Positions 2,885 through 58,602 of a stretch of DNA of 58,602 nt are shown piece after piece (positions within the stretch are counted from its first letter, which is position 1; every line of letters starts with the position of its first letter). The stretch comes from a virus, in IMG/VR virus record IMGVR_UViG_3300030380_005307, positions 1 through 58,602 of that record; one strand, given 5' to 3'. A program made the translations under genes and the position numbers. The notes below the pieces were generated by a model. It made no database searches. It saw only the letters and a program-made list of their open reading frames with translations, and had not been told where the DNA came from.

Positions 2885-2939
2885 TGCCTAATTGGATGTA
2901 CCGGGGTTCGATTCCCCGGTAGGCATCGACAATAATGTC
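2885..2939 (+). ncRNA. Structured leader A with tRNA T-arm mimic
   Basis: The outer strand TGCC(TA) at 2885-2890 pairs with (TA)GGCA at 2920-2925. Inside, after a short linker containing ATTGGAT, TACCGGGG and CCCCGGTA form an 8-bp stem closed by TTCGATT, exactly a canonical tRNA T-loop (2907-2913). A weak second hairpin GACA-ATAA-TGTC (2928-2939) ends 21 bases before the ATG of the ardC-like gene. This resembles a tRNA acceptor/T-arm minihelix without D or anticodon arms. It could be an RNase P or RNase Z processing signal, a stability element or part of a ribozyme. The function is not known. Confidence 0.6.
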
Positions 2940-2960: not shown

Positions 2961-3908
2961 ATGAATAATCAAGACAAAATTTTCAAACAAGTAAACGACA
3001 TCGTTTTAGAGGGGCTAAAGCGAGATGGGATGAAATGGTTCATGCCATGGAAACCGGGTGAAGAGTTTCAACCTATGAATCACTCCTCCAAAACCTATTA
3101 CAAAGGGTTCAATGTGTTCATGCTCAATGCAGTCATGACCTATGAAAGATATGAGTTTAACCAATGGTTGACCTACAAGCAATGCAAAGCTAATGGTGGT
3201 CAGGTTAATAAAGGTGAGAAATCAACCCAGATATACTTTTGGAAGATCGGATACTTTGATCAAAAGACTGAGAAATACCTATCTGATAAAGAGATCAAGA
3301 AAGCTAATCTATCAGAAAAGATTGTGGTTGATGGTACAACACAAAACCGATACAAAAAGACATTCTCAGTCAGATATTACAATGTGTTCAATGTCGCCCA
3401 ATGTGATGGCATTGATCCAATTGTATTTGATCAGTCTGAGATCACAAAGGCAAACGAACCAATCAAGGTTGCTGATGATCTTGCAAAAAGCTATGTTGAC
3501 CGGGATGGTAAGTTAAGACTCGAACACCTACAAGATCGTGCATTTTACAATGTCAACAGAGACATGGTCAATATGCCTAAACTTGAATCGTTTGTAGACT
3601 CTGATTCGTACTACAAAGTACTTTTCCATGAGTTAGCCCATTCAACTGGACACAAGGATCGAATGGATCGTAAAAGTCTTACAGAAGTATCCAATTGGGG
3701 TGATAACACCTATGCCAAGGAGGAACTGGTCGCTGAGATTTCAGCGATGTACATCTCAGGGATGTTGGGGCTTGATCCGAAAGACTGTGATCAGAATAGT
3801 GTGGCCTACATCAAGGGATGGTGTAAGCATCTATCTGATAAGCCAAAGGAATGCTTGTATGCGATGCAACAAGCGACAAAGGTTGTTGCCTACATCCAAG
3901 GTAACTAA
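2961..3908 (+). CDS. ardC: ArdC-like antirestriction protein
   Basis: Resembles ArdC/DUF1738 antirestriction proteins, which protect incoming DNA from host restriction. The N-terminal half (about 1-150) has the ssDNA-binding-type pattern with KWFMPWKPG, YYKGFNVFML and NQWLTYKQCKANGGQVNKGEK. The C-terminal half carries a zinc-metalloprotease motif FHELAHSTGH (His223, Glu224, His227) followed by KEELVAEI near 254, the usual third ligand region. At 315 residues it has the normal family length. The start is the ATG at 2961 (MNNQDKIFKQ), 21 bases after leader A. The upstream in-frame codons run through that RNA structure and are unlikely to be translated. Placement among the first early genes fits a protein needed soon after DNA entry. 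Confidence 0.85.
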   Translation: MNNQDKIFKQVNDIVLEGLKRDGMKWFMPWKPGEEFQPMNHSSKTYYKGFNVFMLNAVMTYERYEFNQWLTYKQCKANGGQVNKGEKSTQIYFWKIGYFDQKTEKYLSDKEIKKANLSEKIVVDGTTQNRYKKTFSVRYYNVFNVAQCDGIDPIVFDQSEITKANEPIKVADDLAKSYVDRDGKLRLEHLQDRAFYNVNRDMVNMPKLESFVDSDSYYKVLFHELAHSTGHKDRMDRKSLTEVSNWGDNTYAKEELVAEISAMYISGMLGLDPKDCDQNSVAYIKGWCKHLSDKPKECLYAMQQATKVVAYIQGN

Positions 3909-3913
3909 TCAAC

Positions 3914-3969
3914 TCCGGGATTGGATCATGGAGGGGATCGTTTCCCCTCCCCGGATCGACAATATTGTC
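3914..3969 (+). ncRNA. Structured leader B
   Basis: Same plan as leader A. The outer stem is TCCGG (3914-3918) with CCGGA (3951-3955). A linker again contains ATTGGAT. The inner 7-bp stem is GGAGGGG/CCCCTCC with a 7-base loop ATCGTTT, close to but not a canonical T-loop. It is followed by the perfect palindrome GACAATATTGTC (3958-3969), which ends 20 bases before the ATG at 3990. Confidence 0.55.
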
Positions 3970-3989: not shown

Positions 3990-4385
3990 ATGTTAAAATC
4001 AGTATCATTTAAAAACTTGCCGAACAAATGCAAGTGTGGTATGTGGAACGTTGACCCAAAGGATTATGATGTATCGAAGTATGTCGGTATTCGTGTGGTT
4101 GATATTCCTAAATGCCGATCAGCAAAGAAGTTCAATTCTTTAGGGATCGGAGTAGCTTGTTTCGATGGGATCGAGTATCAAGGGTTTGGAGTCAAACACT
4201 ATGTTGACTATCACCGAGGGTTTGGTGATAGCAATGGATGTTCTATGACAACTGGATTTGAGGATGGAACAATGGCTGATCTTCTTGACCATGTAACTTG
4301 TGGAAGTGAAGTTTATCTTCATTGGGAATATTTAAAGGGTCATCCTAAAGCGTATGATTGCGAATGTAAAACCGAGAAATCATGA
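3990..4385 (+). CDS. Hypothetical Cys-containing early protein (131 aa)
   Basis: Not recognised. It is a 131-residue soluble protein with CKCGM near residue 14 and further Cys pairs near the C-terminus (CECKTEKS). These could bind a metal, although no standard zinc-finger spacing is seen. Gly-rich patches such as GFGVKHYVDYHRGFGDSNG suggest a beta-rich fold. It follows structured leader B by 20 bases and overlaps the next gene by ATGA, implying translational coupling. Confidence 0.7.
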   Translation: MLKSVSFKNLPNKCKCGMWNVDPKDYDVSKYVGIRVVDIPKCRSAKKFNSLGIGVACFDGIEYQGFGVKHYVDYHRGFGDSNGCSMTTGFEDGTMADLLDHVTCGSEVYLHWEYLKGHPKAYDCECKTEKS

Positions 4386-4630
4386 AACAAAGACTATTAA
4401 AATTTATTTGGAACGCCTTGTCTAAAATGGACAAGGGAAGGAAATGGGATTATGAATCAGCACCATATTGTGGTCATCATCATCAGGGATTTGAAAACAA
4501 GTACATCTCTGAAAGCTATCACGAAGGTGAAGGTGGAGGATTCTCAAAAGTCTCATTGTTGGGTTACATCATTGAGATGGACAATGTGTACCAGTCAGGT
4601 ACAATGTATTATTTAGTTAAAAAGATGTAA
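4382..4630 (+). CDS. Hypothetical early protein (82 aa)
   Basis: Not recognised. An 82-residue protein with a basic N-terminus and a His-rich stretch PYCGHHHQGFENKY, without membrane segments. Its ATG overlaps the stop of the preceding gene (ATGA), so the two are probably co-translated. The hammerhead ribozyme lies immediately downstream, so this gene would form the 3' end of the upstream cleavage product. Confidence 0.65.
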   Translation: MKQRLLKFIWNALSKMDKGRKWDYESAPYCGHHHQGFENKYISESYHEGEGGGFSKVSLLGYIIEMDNVYQSGTMYYLVKKM

Positions 4631-4638
4631 CCGATGTC

Positions 4639-4658
4639 AGGGAGGGTTACACCTCCCT
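4639..4658 (+). other. Hairpin upstream of the hammerhead ribozyme
   Basis: AGGGAGG (4639-4645) and CCTCCCT (4652-4658) form a 7-bp stem with loop GTTACA. It occupies the place of the GC-rich first hairpin of leaders A, B and D and shares one base with hammerhead stem III. After self-cleavage it would sit close to the 3' end of the upstream mRNA and could protect it from 3' exonucleases. Confidence 0.6.
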
Positions 4659-4708
4659 CTGTCGATAGGTGTGTGCCTATCCTGATGAGATCAAAAGATC
4701 GAAACGGA
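4658..4708 (+). ncRNA. Type III hammerhead ribozyme
   Basis: All conserved parts are present in order. Stem III 5' strand (4658-4662) leads into cleavage triplet GTC (4661-4663). Stem I is GATAGG/CCTATC (4664-4669, 4676-4681) with loop TGTGTG. Core CTGATGA is at 4682-4688. Stem II is GATC/GATC (4689-4692, 4697-4700) with loop AAAA. GAA is at 4701-4703, then A4704 pairs with T4662 and stem III closes with 5 bp including one G-T. Cleavage after C4663 would leave a 66-base leader on the next gene. Its end lies 21 bases from the ATG at 4730. Hammerheads are known in phages. Activity here is predicted from the complete consensus. Confidence 0.88.
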
Positions 4709-4729
4709 TTATTAACTAACAACAAAATT

Positions 4730-5035
4730 ATGTTACATTCAAAATTTAACACATCGTTTGATCTGACTGAACGTTCAGTTACGATCCACATTACTTACCG
4801 AGTCAATGGTGAGAATCACTACTTATCACCTTGGTTTTTATTTGATGATCAAGGTAAGCTAATAATTGATGACAATCGAGTACTAAAGGATTGTTTTAAG
4901 TACATAGCAAGACATATTAAAACTACCATGTCAAAACTCCAACAATATTTAGAGAAAGGATATCAAGAGTATCAAGAGGAGTGGCTAATGAATTATGACC
5001 ATTTAGAAACCATCAAACAAACATTAAACGATTAA
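4730..5035 (+). CDS. Hypothetical early protein (101 aa)
   Basis: Not recognised. The frame is open from 4634, but those codons span the hammerhead, so the start is set at the ATG at 4730 (MLHSKFNTSF), preceded by an A-rich stretch like its neighbours. The 101-residue product looks soluble, with a beta-rich N-terminal half (SVTIHITYRVNGENHYL) and a helical C-terminus. The hammerhead suggests its message is separated from upstream genes after transcription. Confidence 0.7.
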   Translation: MLHSKFNTSFDLTERSVTIHITYRVNGENHYLSPWFLFDDQGKLIIDDNRVLKDCFKYIARHIKTTMSKLQQYLEKGYQEYQEEWLMNYDHLETIKQTLND

Positions 5036-6813: not shown

Positions 6814-6921
6814 ATGAGAATATATAAAGAACACAAAGATGGAGAGATCGTGGCAATTTTACACAGAGATTTTCCAAAGGTTTATGATCAGATATTAGAA
6901 TATTTAGATCAAGAAGGATAG
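6814..6921 (+). CDS. Hypothetical small early protein (35 aa)
   Basis: Encodes MRIYKEHKDGEIVAILHRDF and a short acidic tail. Its stop codon lies inside the first stem of leader D (6916-6921), so translation termination and RNA folding there may affect each other. Its small size lowers confidence, but spacing and start context match its neighbours. Confidence 0.5.
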   Translation: MRIYKEHKDGEIVAILHRDFPKVYDQILEYLDQEG

Positions 6922-6972
6922 CATGGTGCATTGGGAGGTTCGATTCCTCCCTGTCCACGAGTAATAATGCTC
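6916..6972 (+). ncRNA. Structured leader D with tRNA T-arm mimic
   Basis: GGATAG (6916-6921) pairs with CTGTCC (6951-6956) through six pairs, one of them T-G. After an 11-base linker, GGAGG/CCTCC close the canonical T-loop TTCGATT (6939-6945). A short hairpin GAGT-AATAAT-GCTC (6959-6972) ends 20 bases before the ATG at 6993. The plan is the same as leader A although the stem sequences differ, so shape rather than sequence appears conserved. Confidence 0.6.
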
Positions 6973-16329: not shown

Positions 16330-19300
16330 TTAATTATTAAATCGAGATGATTTTTTCTTATTAAATCTAGATGGCTTTTTCTTATTAAAACGTGATTTTT
16401 GTTTTACCCTTTTTCTTTTCTGTGGAGGTGTATAATTATACATCTCATCCTTTTGTTGTTGTTTTATTTGTCGTTGCGCTCTTTCAATTTCTTTAAGTGC
16501 CTGTCTTTCATCATAGCCTGGAGAGTTAGGACCAAAGGTTACATTCCACAACTCTCTGTCGTACCTCTTCATGTCCGACTCACTGTCGTAGCCTTGCAAC
16601 ATTTCTTTTTTGGCTTTCTGTTTGTCCTTAAGCTCTCTCTTGGCTCTAGAAAGATCTCCATAAATACGATCTAATGTAATCTTTCGCACGTCTTTGTAAA
16701 GAGGTATAAATCCTAGGTTACCAAGGAGTTCCAGGGGCAACCTTATAAACCTCTCCATGTCTTGACGTTCAATCGCTTCAGGTGTTTTCTTTTTGTCTTC
16801 TGTTAACTTTTTTATTAATAACGACCCTGCTCCAAGAGCGGGTCCGTATGCAGCGCCCACTCTTTTTATCAAATCTCCTATGTCATTACCCCTGCCAGAC
16901 GCAGTTTTAGGAAGAGGTGTATACTGTAAAGCGTCTTTAAAAGCATCATACTCACCATCCCTTAAGAAATCAAGTTGAGCTTCATTAAACTCTTCAACAC
17001 CTATATTAATAATTGATTTAGTTGCATTTCCAAAATCCCTACCTAAAAGAAGGGAGGTGAAGGTAGAAGCAAAGGCTTGACCCAACATTTTTTCTGGAGA
17101 CTTCATTCCCTCACCTGGCAATTCATCGTCGTCATCATCGTTTATTATAGATGTCATTCCCTCAGCTAAAAGCTGCCCTAGTATGGTATACAACATCATT
17201 CGGCTTATAACTGCGCCGATCAATCTACCGCCTTGTTTTTTGCTGAGCTCACCTTTGCCTATTAGATTGGCAACACCTGTACGTGCCGTTATATATTCAA
17301 ATATAAGGAACCGAGTCATAAAGTTGTTAAATGAATTAAACGCTCTAAGCAATGCGCTTTGATTTGGTTTAGCCGTACCCTTTAACATACCCATAAAAGC
17401 ATTGTCTGTAGCGCCCGCCATTACTGATTTTTTATCTGCTAAATTTGTAGCTTCATCTAAAGCGGATTGATTAGCCTGTATATAAGTTGAATCATTATCT
17501 GCGATTTTGTCAAAGTCAGGGGACTTACCGGTAATTCTTTTAAATTCATTCTCAAAAGCTCCAAACCACATTGGTCTCATTACGGCTTTATCAGGTGTAG
17601 AAATTAAAAAATCTGCAGCAGCCTCAACGCCCTTCTTCCAGCGCTGACCTGTCTTATTCCACATTTTGAGGATTTCGTTCTGTACGGGCGCAACAGCAGC
17701 ACCGCCTCGTACACCCGCCGCTTGATCAAGTATAGACTTGTCTATAAATCTTCCTGTCAGGCCATCAGCATATATTCGGGTTGTCTGTTTACTGTTTAAG
17801 TTATTTAAAACTTGTGCCCCTTTAGGAGAATTCAACCATCCCATCTTTGATCCGGCTATAAATCCTTTTGGATCTACAATCATTGCAAAGCTAACATTGG
17901 ATACGTATTCAGCAATAAATCTGCCAGTTCCCGCCAATATAGATCGGTATCCCGTTTTTTGTAAATAATTTAAAGCAGCATCGGCAACTGATGATTCGCC
18001 AAACATGTTAACCAATAAATTCTCTGTTGACTCTTCAAAGGCGCTTTCTATTGCATTGAAGACCCTGACGTTATCAAATGTGTATTTGCCTTGTTCTTTT
18101 AAAAGTTTTTTTGTTTGGTTTAGCGTTCCCCTTGCTGTCCTTAATGGAGATGTTAAATGGAAATCAATTAATGTGTTTTTGCTACCTCTTAGTGCTGAAG
18201 CGTAAATGTCAAAGTTCAGAGGCGACACATCTCCAGTCCTTTCAATCAAGGTCTTTGCTTTGGTGGATGGTTTTCTGCTAGTATTATAGGCCTCAATAAC
18301 AGTAAGCTGAGACGACTCCAAGGAATTTTTATTACCAGGAGGCAGTACGTTAAGGTGTACATAATTGTCTAGAGGATCATATTTTTCTCCTCTGATTAGT
18401 GTGGCGGCAACCTCAGCCTTTTCACCTAGACTATCATTTATGTCTCTTACGGTTTGAATAGATTGTTTTTCAGCCTTATTAAAAGAATCAAATAACGCTT
18501 GATTATCAAACTCGCCTTGGTCATTAGTATACGTATCAAGTATATCCTGAAGCATATCAGAATCGGCTTTTGTATATCGTGTTTTTTGTTCGTTAATTCT
18601 TTCTATAGTGGCTTTTAAAAATTCAGTAACTGGATTAACTTGTTTGCTATCAGGGTTACTCAGATACTCTTCTTGTATCATATAAGCCATTTGTTTATAC
18701 TTCGACTTGGTAAACTTGTTAGGATCACTACCTAAAGATTTACGTACATTAGCTTCAGCCTCATTTATCTTTTCTTGTATAACGTCAAACTCCGCTCTAA
18801 ATTTAGTTACAGCTTTTGAAGCCTCTCCAAAAACAGCGTTAAATATATTCTTGGTTTTAAAATCTCCAAAAACTTGGTCAATATAAAATAAAGGATTACG
18901 TCGTACCAATTCTTGAATGCTGTCTTTCCCTGTTATTAAGGCCTTAACCCTAGCATACATTGCACTAAAAGTTAGCGGTTTAGCAGTATTAATCGAAGTG
19001 GCCAAGCCGGAGGCTTTGTTGATTGATTCTAATTTTTCGTTATATCTCTGTATAAGATGAGGCGCATAGCCATTATTAATATTGTCTATTAGTTTTAATA
19101 CATTCTTTAATTCAACATTATCAAATTTATTAATTGCCTCTGTTTGTATTAGTTTTTTAAACTGTTTGGCTAAATCTCTAGCGTATGGTAAAGCCAATTC
19201 AGACACAGAAAAATCAGTTGATTCGTCTATACCCTCCAAAAGTAATTCTCTTTCAGCTTCTAATTCAGCCTCAGTTTTTGGTTCTTTAAGTTGGGGCGGG

Positions 19301-57794: not shown

Positions 57795-58017
57795 TTGTGT
57801 AGGGCTCATCGTGAATAAGCATAGTATATCCCGCGCGCTTATCGTAATATATAATACTATCCTTCTTTATGGGTATAACATCGTTACCTACTTCAACGAT
57901 CCTCCCCTTTTTATACCTAAGCTGGTTCGCATCTTCAGCAGAAAGAAGAAGTCCAGAAGAGGTTTTTAGTTCCTCCTCGATTGTTTTAATTACAACATAT
58001 TTCCCTATTGGCCTCAT
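57760..58017 (-). CDS. groES: Co-chaperonin GroES (85 aa)
   Basis: The lid of the GroEL chamber. MRPIGKYVVIKTIEEE is the first strand. LKTSSGLLLSAEDA is the mobile loop region that contacts GroEL. KGRIVEVGNDVIP, then KKDSIIYYDKRAGYTMLI, with the ending IIRENDIVLVE, completes the fold. At 85 residues it is slightly shorter than the usual 95-100. The ATG overlaps the groEL stop (ATGA), so the pair is translated together, groEL first. Confidence 0.9.
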   Translation of the reverse strand: MRPIGKYVVIKTIEEELKTSSGLLLSAEDANQLRYKKGRIVEVGNDVIPIKKDSIIYYDKRAGYTMLIHDEPYTIIRENDIVLVE

Positions 58018-58602
58018 GAGTTGTCAATTGTACGTGCCATAGTAACAATAGCATTTGTTGATAGTATCGTGGTTGCAACAGACACGGCATTTTGAAGAGC
58101 CGAACGTGTAACCTTCAAAGGATCTATAATCCCCATCTCAATCATGTCCCCAGTTTTCCCAGATTTTACGTCTAACCCTTGACCAACCTTCGCTGTATCA
58201 TGATAAATATTGTTTGGTAACCAATCAATTCCAGCGTTATCTAGTATTTGATTTAAAGGCGCTTCAAGCGCCTCCATCATTATCGCGTAAGCGATCGATT
58301 TTTTATTTTCATTTCTTATATCCTCGGCTGCCTCCCACAGCGCAAGGCCTCCTCCTGGAAGAATGCCTTCAACTAGAGCAGATCTTACAGCACATACTGC
58401 GTCGTCTACTCGATCATACAGTTCTTTCTGCTCTAAGTCAGTATTCCCGCCGACATAGATTACGCCTACACCGCCTGTGAGGGAAGCGATGCGAGACATG
58501 ATAAAATCTTTGTCGGCTTTTTTCTTTGTTATTTTATGTGCTTCCCATAGCTCATTTACCCTTTTTTCAATATCATCCATGCTTACTTTGTCTTCATCTT
58601 TG
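58014..58602 (-). CDS. groEL: Chaperonin GroEL, C-terminal part (continues at 1115)
   Basis: This part carries ELYDRVDDAVCAVRSALVEG and ILPGGGLAL (equivalent of E. coli Asp398), and GIIDPLKVTRSALQNAVSVA (Asp495 region). The protein ends NAIVTMARTIDNS without the Gly-Gly-Met tail of most bacterial GroELs. In E. coli that tail is not essential but influences folding in the cavity. Together with 1-1115 the gene is complete at 534 residues. Confidence 0.95.
   Translation of the reverse strand, partial: KDEDKVSMDDIEKRVNELWEAHKITKKKADKDFIMSRIASLTGGVGVIYVGGNTDLEQKELYDRVDDAVCAVRSALVEGILPGGGLALWEAAEDIRNENKKSIAYAIMMEALEAPLNQILDNAGIDWLPNNIYHDTAKVGQGLDVKSGKTGDMIEMGIIDPLKVTRSALQNAVSVATTILSTNAIVTMARTIDNS
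58504..58601. repeat. Terminal overlap, copy 2
   Basis: Identical to 1-98. The final base of the window (58602, g) differs from the corresponding base 99 (a). In the groEL frame the change is in the third position of a Leu codon and is silent. Confidence 0.85.

Follow-up and report, generated by a model that had tools for sequence, protein, structure and literature searches.

What does a predicted self-cleaving RNA motif do between two small genes of a phage? The question of the role of phage and bacterial hammerheads dates from 2010-2011, and it arises at a locus in a viral DNA (IMG/VR record IMGVR_UViG_3300030380_005307), of which we analyzed the entire stretch of 58,602 bases (hereafter the window). 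Coordinates of the features are collected in Table 1.

A type III hammerhead ribozyme between two small genes

Read directly from the sequence, positions 4658-4708 of the plus strand form a complete type III hammerhead ribozyme of 51 bases. Stem III is open and stems I and II are closed by loops, as the type III topology demands, with stem lengths (III/I/II) of 5/6/4 bp, and the invariant core (C3U4G5A6N7G8A9, G12A13A14 and the UH at the cut site) is present throughout as CUGAUGA, GAA and U4662 C4663. An earlier note on this DNA had given the class, coordinates, cut site and placement ahead of the 101-aa gene (ATG 4730) correctly. Its description of the complementarity as perfect holds only if G-U pairs are counted; strictly, the 5 bp of stem III include one wobble (U4660-G4706). 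The same note recognized the hammerhead and overlooked both the coupled hairpin at 4640-4657 and the tRNA-like elements at neighboring genes. The combination of UGUGUG and AAAA loops resembles that of the sTRSV ribozyme.

Table 1 Features of the window around the hammerhead and at neighboring genes
Feature	Position	Strand	Details or basis
tRNA-like mini-element 1, before ArdC-like gene	2885-2925	+	acceptor-like stem, linker with GG, T-arm (loop UUCGAUU)
Small hairpin after mini-element 1	2928-2939	+	GACA-loop-TGTC
ArdC-like anti-restriction gene (ArdcN + MPTase-PolyVal)	2961-3908	+	tRNA-like element ahead; hammerheads in relatives
tRNA-like mini-element 2, before 131-aa gene	3914-3955	+	
Small hairpin after mini-element 2	3958-3969	+	GACA-loop-TGTC
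82-aa gene upstream of hammerhead	4382-4630	+	no Pfam/PHROG match; 94% identical homolog in L006
GC-rich hairpin GGGAGG-GUUACA-CCUCCC	4640-4657	+	pair probability 0.99; stem kept, loop changed in L006
Stem III, 5' strand	4658-4662	+	UCUGU
C17, predicted cleavage 3' of base	4663	+	RF00008 alignment, phage model
Stem I, GAUAGG 4664-4669 / CCUAUC 4676-4681, hexaloop UGUGUG 4670-4675	4664-4681	+	sequence, descriptor scan, covariation
Core CUGAUGA	4682-4688	+	sequence, RF00008 match
Stem II, GAUC 4689-4692 / GAUC 4697-4700, loop AAAA	4689-4700	+	sequence, descriptor scan, covariation
Core GAA 4701-4703 and stem III 3' strand ACGGA 4704-4708	4701-4708	+	sequence, RF00008 match
101-aa gene headed by ribozyme	4730-5035	+	ATG 4730
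tRNA-like mini-element 3, before gene at ATG 6993	6916-6956	+	

A descriptor scan of both strands found exactly one type III motif in the 58,602 bases, compared with 0.01 motifs per dinucleotide-shuffled window at loose settings and none in 200 at settings as strict as the window hammerhead. Rfam returned no match at the hammerhead when the window was searched at the gathering threshold, and an E-value search of 301 bases did not recover it; a narrow search of 76 nt matched RF00008 (Hammerhead_3) at 4656-4710 with 35.2 bits (E = 9e-7), below the gathering threshold of 48.5. A covariance model built from 60 phage and genome relatives, the window sequence among them, scored the element at 69.4 bits (E = 3e-23), and as nothing else in the window scored with this model, a second type III hammerhead was ruled out. 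In a thermodynamic model of the isolated fold, the full hammerhead lies 2.7 kcal/mol above the minimum free energy structure, with pairing frequencies of ~7% for stem III and ~99% for stems I and II and the 5' hairpin; since the median gap in the family is 2.2 kcal/mol, this marginal fold is typical. We regard the element, on its sequence, as a genuine type III hammerhead, and the original observation as confirmed.

The hammerhead ends 21 nt before the start codon of the 101-aa gene. Its interpretation as coding DNA was rejected, since an in-frame extension to an ATG at 4634 has stops in the nearest relative, the contig L006. This was the one near relative found for the flanking gene; no DNA relative was present in the phage collection, and one search of viral contigs detected no relatives of the 101-aa protein. 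Further upstream, the window gene at 3990-4385 and its L006 counterpart (~4520-5002) are mosaic, with different N-terminal bodies and a common C-terminal end (KGHP...DCEC), which lies directly before the conserved 82-aa gene and marks a recombination junction. Annotated relatives of the terminase and portal (PHROGs) come from Flavobacterium, Cellulophaga, Tenacibaculum and Maribacter phages, with about 45% identity to those of Flavobacterium Elemovirus, so that a Bacteroidota host, which the earlier note had assumed, is well supported. The C-terminal part of a GroEL gene (PF00118) lies at the window end (58014-58580). As GroEL and GroES are encoded by relatives, the window ends may interrupt a circular or permuted genome.

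Conservation and placement in phages

The element is retained in the 58.6-kb contig L006, where the ribozyme differs at two positions and pairing is preserved at each: a U-G pair of stem III has become U-A, and a U-A pair of stem II has become U-G. The 5' hairpin of L006 has an unchanged stem and an altered loop. A search pattern that fixed only the core and loop types drew at least 120 stretches from viral contigs; samples are pattern-drawn, with counts taken from the matches listed and inflated by related contigs. Among the matches listed, 113 of 119 distinct core-pattern matches were complete hammerheads, and three stem II pairs left unconstrained by the pattern were formed in all 119. Across 60 diverse relatives, 97% of alignment cells were paired, the covariation score was 0.86 (vs. 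0.22 when shuffled and at most 0.13 when slid) and double-sided compensatory cells numbered 310 vs. 91 in shuffles. Compensatory change in related phages, which the earlier note had proposed looking for, is thus present both in the nearest relative and across the family.

Spacing was identical in 127 of 152 type III copies among the matches listed, and the family loops are conserved as UGWGYR-like (loop I) and NAAA (loop II). This geometry bears on the possibility that the element is a regulated switch, in which a ligand, a protein or a ribosome on the 82-aa gene governs folding or cutting and so tunes the 101-aa gene. A marginal stem III that competes with another fold, the short distance of 21 nt to the ATG and the precedent of glmS are in keeping with such a switch, but stems I and II are compact and fixed in their geometry, an extra conserved aptamer-like domain is absent and the hairpin-hammerhead module precedes unrelated genes, all of which makes regulation of this kind unlikely.

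With a stem II pattern that did not favor type III, most of the hammerheads recovered were type I, often with several on a single contig, and the phage contigs L025, L028, L134 and L135 carry 3-6 or more type I hammerheads within a few kb. Clustered hammerheads in related phages would suit a role in generating RNA circles or spliced RNA by cleavage and ligation, as known from viroids and retrozymes; we consider this very improbable here, as the window holds a single hammerhead and Perreault et al. sought circular or spliced products and found none (PMC3088659). In bacterial genome contigs, the type III pattern returned 83 stretches, mostly from Patescibacteria MAGs and some from Cytophagales; these contigs held no strict copy of the window module but did contain the looser type III pattern. 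The phage-like type III hammerheads in L469-L548, mostly Patescibacteria MAGs, may stem from phages of these bacteria or from binned phage contigs.

A cultured phage, Flavobacterium Elemovirus vB_FspP_elemoA_13-1A (L568, MT497065.1), carries its own type III hammerhead on the minus strand at 18491-18543 (44.9 bits, E = 1.5e-13). Across 68 cultured records this region shows at least 99% identity, and all records listed leave it unannotated, which opens the ribozyme to testing in culture. The Elemovirus hammerhead apparently overlaps the upstream gene at its end; a weak second match to the model lies at 16720-16759 of the same genome (17.7 bits, E = 0.0029). The searches and alignments place the window hammerhead in a large phage family.

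A same-strand ORF of at least 60 aa follows within 60 nt of 82% of type III hammerheads, 60% of type I hammerheads and 71% of the tRNA mimics described below, vs. 18% of random positions, and 3-7% of elements (7% for type III) fall inside ORFs of at least 80 aa vs. 40% of random positions. This placement, together with the shuffle expectation, the pair-preserving changes in L006 and the family covariation, renders a chance motif or inactive relic close to negligible as an explanation, although the Rfam score is below gathering and the flanking gene has one near relative only.

The 5' hairpin and the tRNA-like elements

The GC-rich hairpin abuts the first base of stem III with a gap of 0 nt. 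As an intrinsic terminator it was rejected, given that it has no T tract and received no terminator call. Among the matches listed, a strong hairpin ends at most 8 nt from stem III in 77.7% of the complete viral type III hammerheads, vs. 5.9% in shuffled sequence and 8.7% at position-matched sites upstream of other ORFs, and the gap is zero in 65 of 87 viral copies. An independent set from bacterial genome contigs gave 46.9% vs. 4.9% (shuffled) and 7.5% (other ORFs), the nulls throughout being mononucleotide shuffles and other upstream regions and the loci being partly related. Type I hammerheads have such a hairpin in 6.8% of cases vs. 3.5% when shuffled. Frequent hairpin loops are UCAA, UUCG and GAAA. 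About a quarter of the viral and half of the genome type III copies have no hairpin, including the cultured Elemovirus copy, which indicates that it is not obligatory.

After type I cleavage, stems II and III would stay as a 3'-end hairpin on the upstream RNA; after type III cleavage, the ribozyme body would go with the downstream RNA and the upstream end would be bare. The extra hairpin of type III copies would supply the upstream end structure that this topology lacks, and the hairpin at 4640-4657 and the ribozyme are best read as one cassette.

The tRNA-like mini-elements, or tRNA mimics, ahead of neighboring genes have a common design: a stem of 5-7 bp, a GG-bearing linker (UUGGAU or AUGGU) and a T-arm whose loop resembles UUCGAUU. 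In 2.5 Mb of fetched phage loci, a generic scan yielded 26 tRNA-like elements vs. 5 in a shuffle (mononucleotide only). Among the matches listed from viral contigs, a T-stem of 5 bp or more occurs in 111 of 121 distinct matches, and the two stems together most often measure 12 bp, like the acceptor plus T stems of tRNA; the helix was missing from 117 of 121 flank-shuffled copies. tRNA mimics lie a median of 37 nt ahead of an ATG, and a small hairpin follows them in 47.7% of cases vs. 8.7% for comparison. The mini-elements were rejected as tRNA genes, as ARAGORN finds none in the window and a cloverleaf with an anticodon arm is lacking, and also as known Rfam RNAs, with no match to tRNA mimics above gathering in the loci tested (the best sub-threshold match of the tRNA-like element was mascRNA-menRNA). 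The scans mark the tRNA mimic as a widespread phage element without an Rfam match in the loci tested. By analogy with model substrates made of an acceptor stem and a T-arm, which RNase P cleaves (PMC11143913), the mini-elements are plausible processing sites.

Different element types precede homologous genes. Families were defined by clustering the genes downstream of elements; the loci derive from separate scans by pattern, and selection on these genes played no part in any of them. For the ArdC-like genes, the element ahead is a type I hammerhead in L006, a type III hammerhead in L014 and L066 and a tRNA mimic in the window, L336, L347 and L445, and a family of 13 genes has 10 type III hammerheads, 2 tRNA mimics and 1 type I hammerhead ahead. 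The type I hammerhead before the ArdC-like gene of L006 occupies 3407-3460; its window counterpart is a tRNA mimic. The one property that all these structures would have in common is RNA cutting, and this speaks for a role of the window hammerhead in mRNA processing; the best reading of these sequence patterns is that hammerheads and tRNA mimics are interchangeable mRNA-cutting sites that would leave structured ends.

The exchange also bears on whether the hairpin-hammerhead unit is mainly a recombination seam for shuffling small genes, with cleavage secondary. The unit stands before different genes in L006, L008 and L014 and is near-identical between the window and L006 while the downstream protein is strongly diverged, as expected of a seam. 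However, homologous genes are headed by non-homologous element types, and stems vary across phages with pairing retained, which selection for DNA homology would not bring about, and we judge a mere seam to be improbable.

Proposed transcript processing and known systems

Given the observed sequence, structure, covariation, hairpin coupling, position and swap of element types, we consider it likely that the type III hammerhead cleaves the polycistronic early transcript of this phage, an Elemovirus-like phage of flavobacteria, and leaves structured ends, as the tRNA mimics would do nearby. We infer that cleavage, end protection and the use of RNase P would proceed as follows. Assuming co-transcription across 4630-4730, the hammerhead would divide the early transcript 3' of C4663 and separate the 82-aa gene from the 101-aa gene. 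The upstream mRNA would then end in the GC hairpin followed by UCUGUC and a 2',3'-cyclic phosphate, and with this hairpin cap it should withstand 3' exonucleases. The downstream mRNA would carry a 5'-OH at its start, on the hairpin of stem I and 66 nt ahead of the ATG, and should withstand 5'-phosphate-dependent decay. The acceptor/T-arm mimics at neighboring genes would do the same job, probably via host RNase P and the tRNA 3'-end nuclease RNase Z. The association of the hairpin with type III and not type I hammerheads and the replacement by tRNA mimics point to transcript cutting with end protection, which is testable. Evenly balanced, in our judgement, is the broader proposition that the early transcripts of many tailed phages are punctuated by RNA-cutting cassettes of interchangeable kinds (a hairpin plus type III hammerhead, a type I hammerhead, or a minimal tRNA mimic served by host tRNA-processing enzymes), each giving structured mRNA ends. 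If true, the tRNA-mimic class would be a new phage RNA element.

For the hammerheads that they found clustered in prophages, Perreault et al. (2011, PMC3088659) suggested a role in dividing long transcripts into mRNAs of gene length, and they observed cleavage in vitro and in E. coli. Processing of a polycistronic mRNA by a cut at 4663 would agree with this proposal. Since hammerheads and the processing idea were already part of the 2011 work, the window ribozyme adds a member to a known class, and its function had been suspected before; the cassette, with its hairpin coupling and tRNA-mimic exchange, is what sets the whole apart as a variant. Searched by text, PMC3088659 yielded nothing on a 5' hairpin coupled to the ribozyme or on tRNA-like elements taking the place of hammerheads, and neither the type III hairpin coupling nor the tRNA-mimic exchange was found in the literature searched, which included few subscription papers; their novelty is a lead and not proof.

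The prophage hammerheads of Perreault et al. likewise lie between phage genes, some of them before anti-restriction genes, ardA there and ArdC-like genes in the relatives studied here. With the type III hammerheads of RF00008, the window element has its core, topology, cut site and stem arrangement in common; unlike them, it resides in the leader of a DNA phage and not in a viroid or satellite RNA, scores below gathering and combines a compact, fixed geometry with a UGWG-type hexaloop, an NAAA tetraloop and the coupled 5' hairpin. Elements of the mascRNA/MALAT1 type and RNase P model substrates resemble the window mini-elements in having an acceptor-like stem and a T-arm, and they can direct tRNA-processing enzymes, as the mini-elements may; the mini-elements differ from them in their location in phage 5' leaders, the lack of an anticodon arm and a GG-bearing linker of 10-12 nt. 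HDV-like theta ribozymes of gut phages are also self-cleaving RNAs of Bacteroidota phages, but they belong to another ribozyme class and are tied to the processing of real suppressor tRNAs (PMC10879173).
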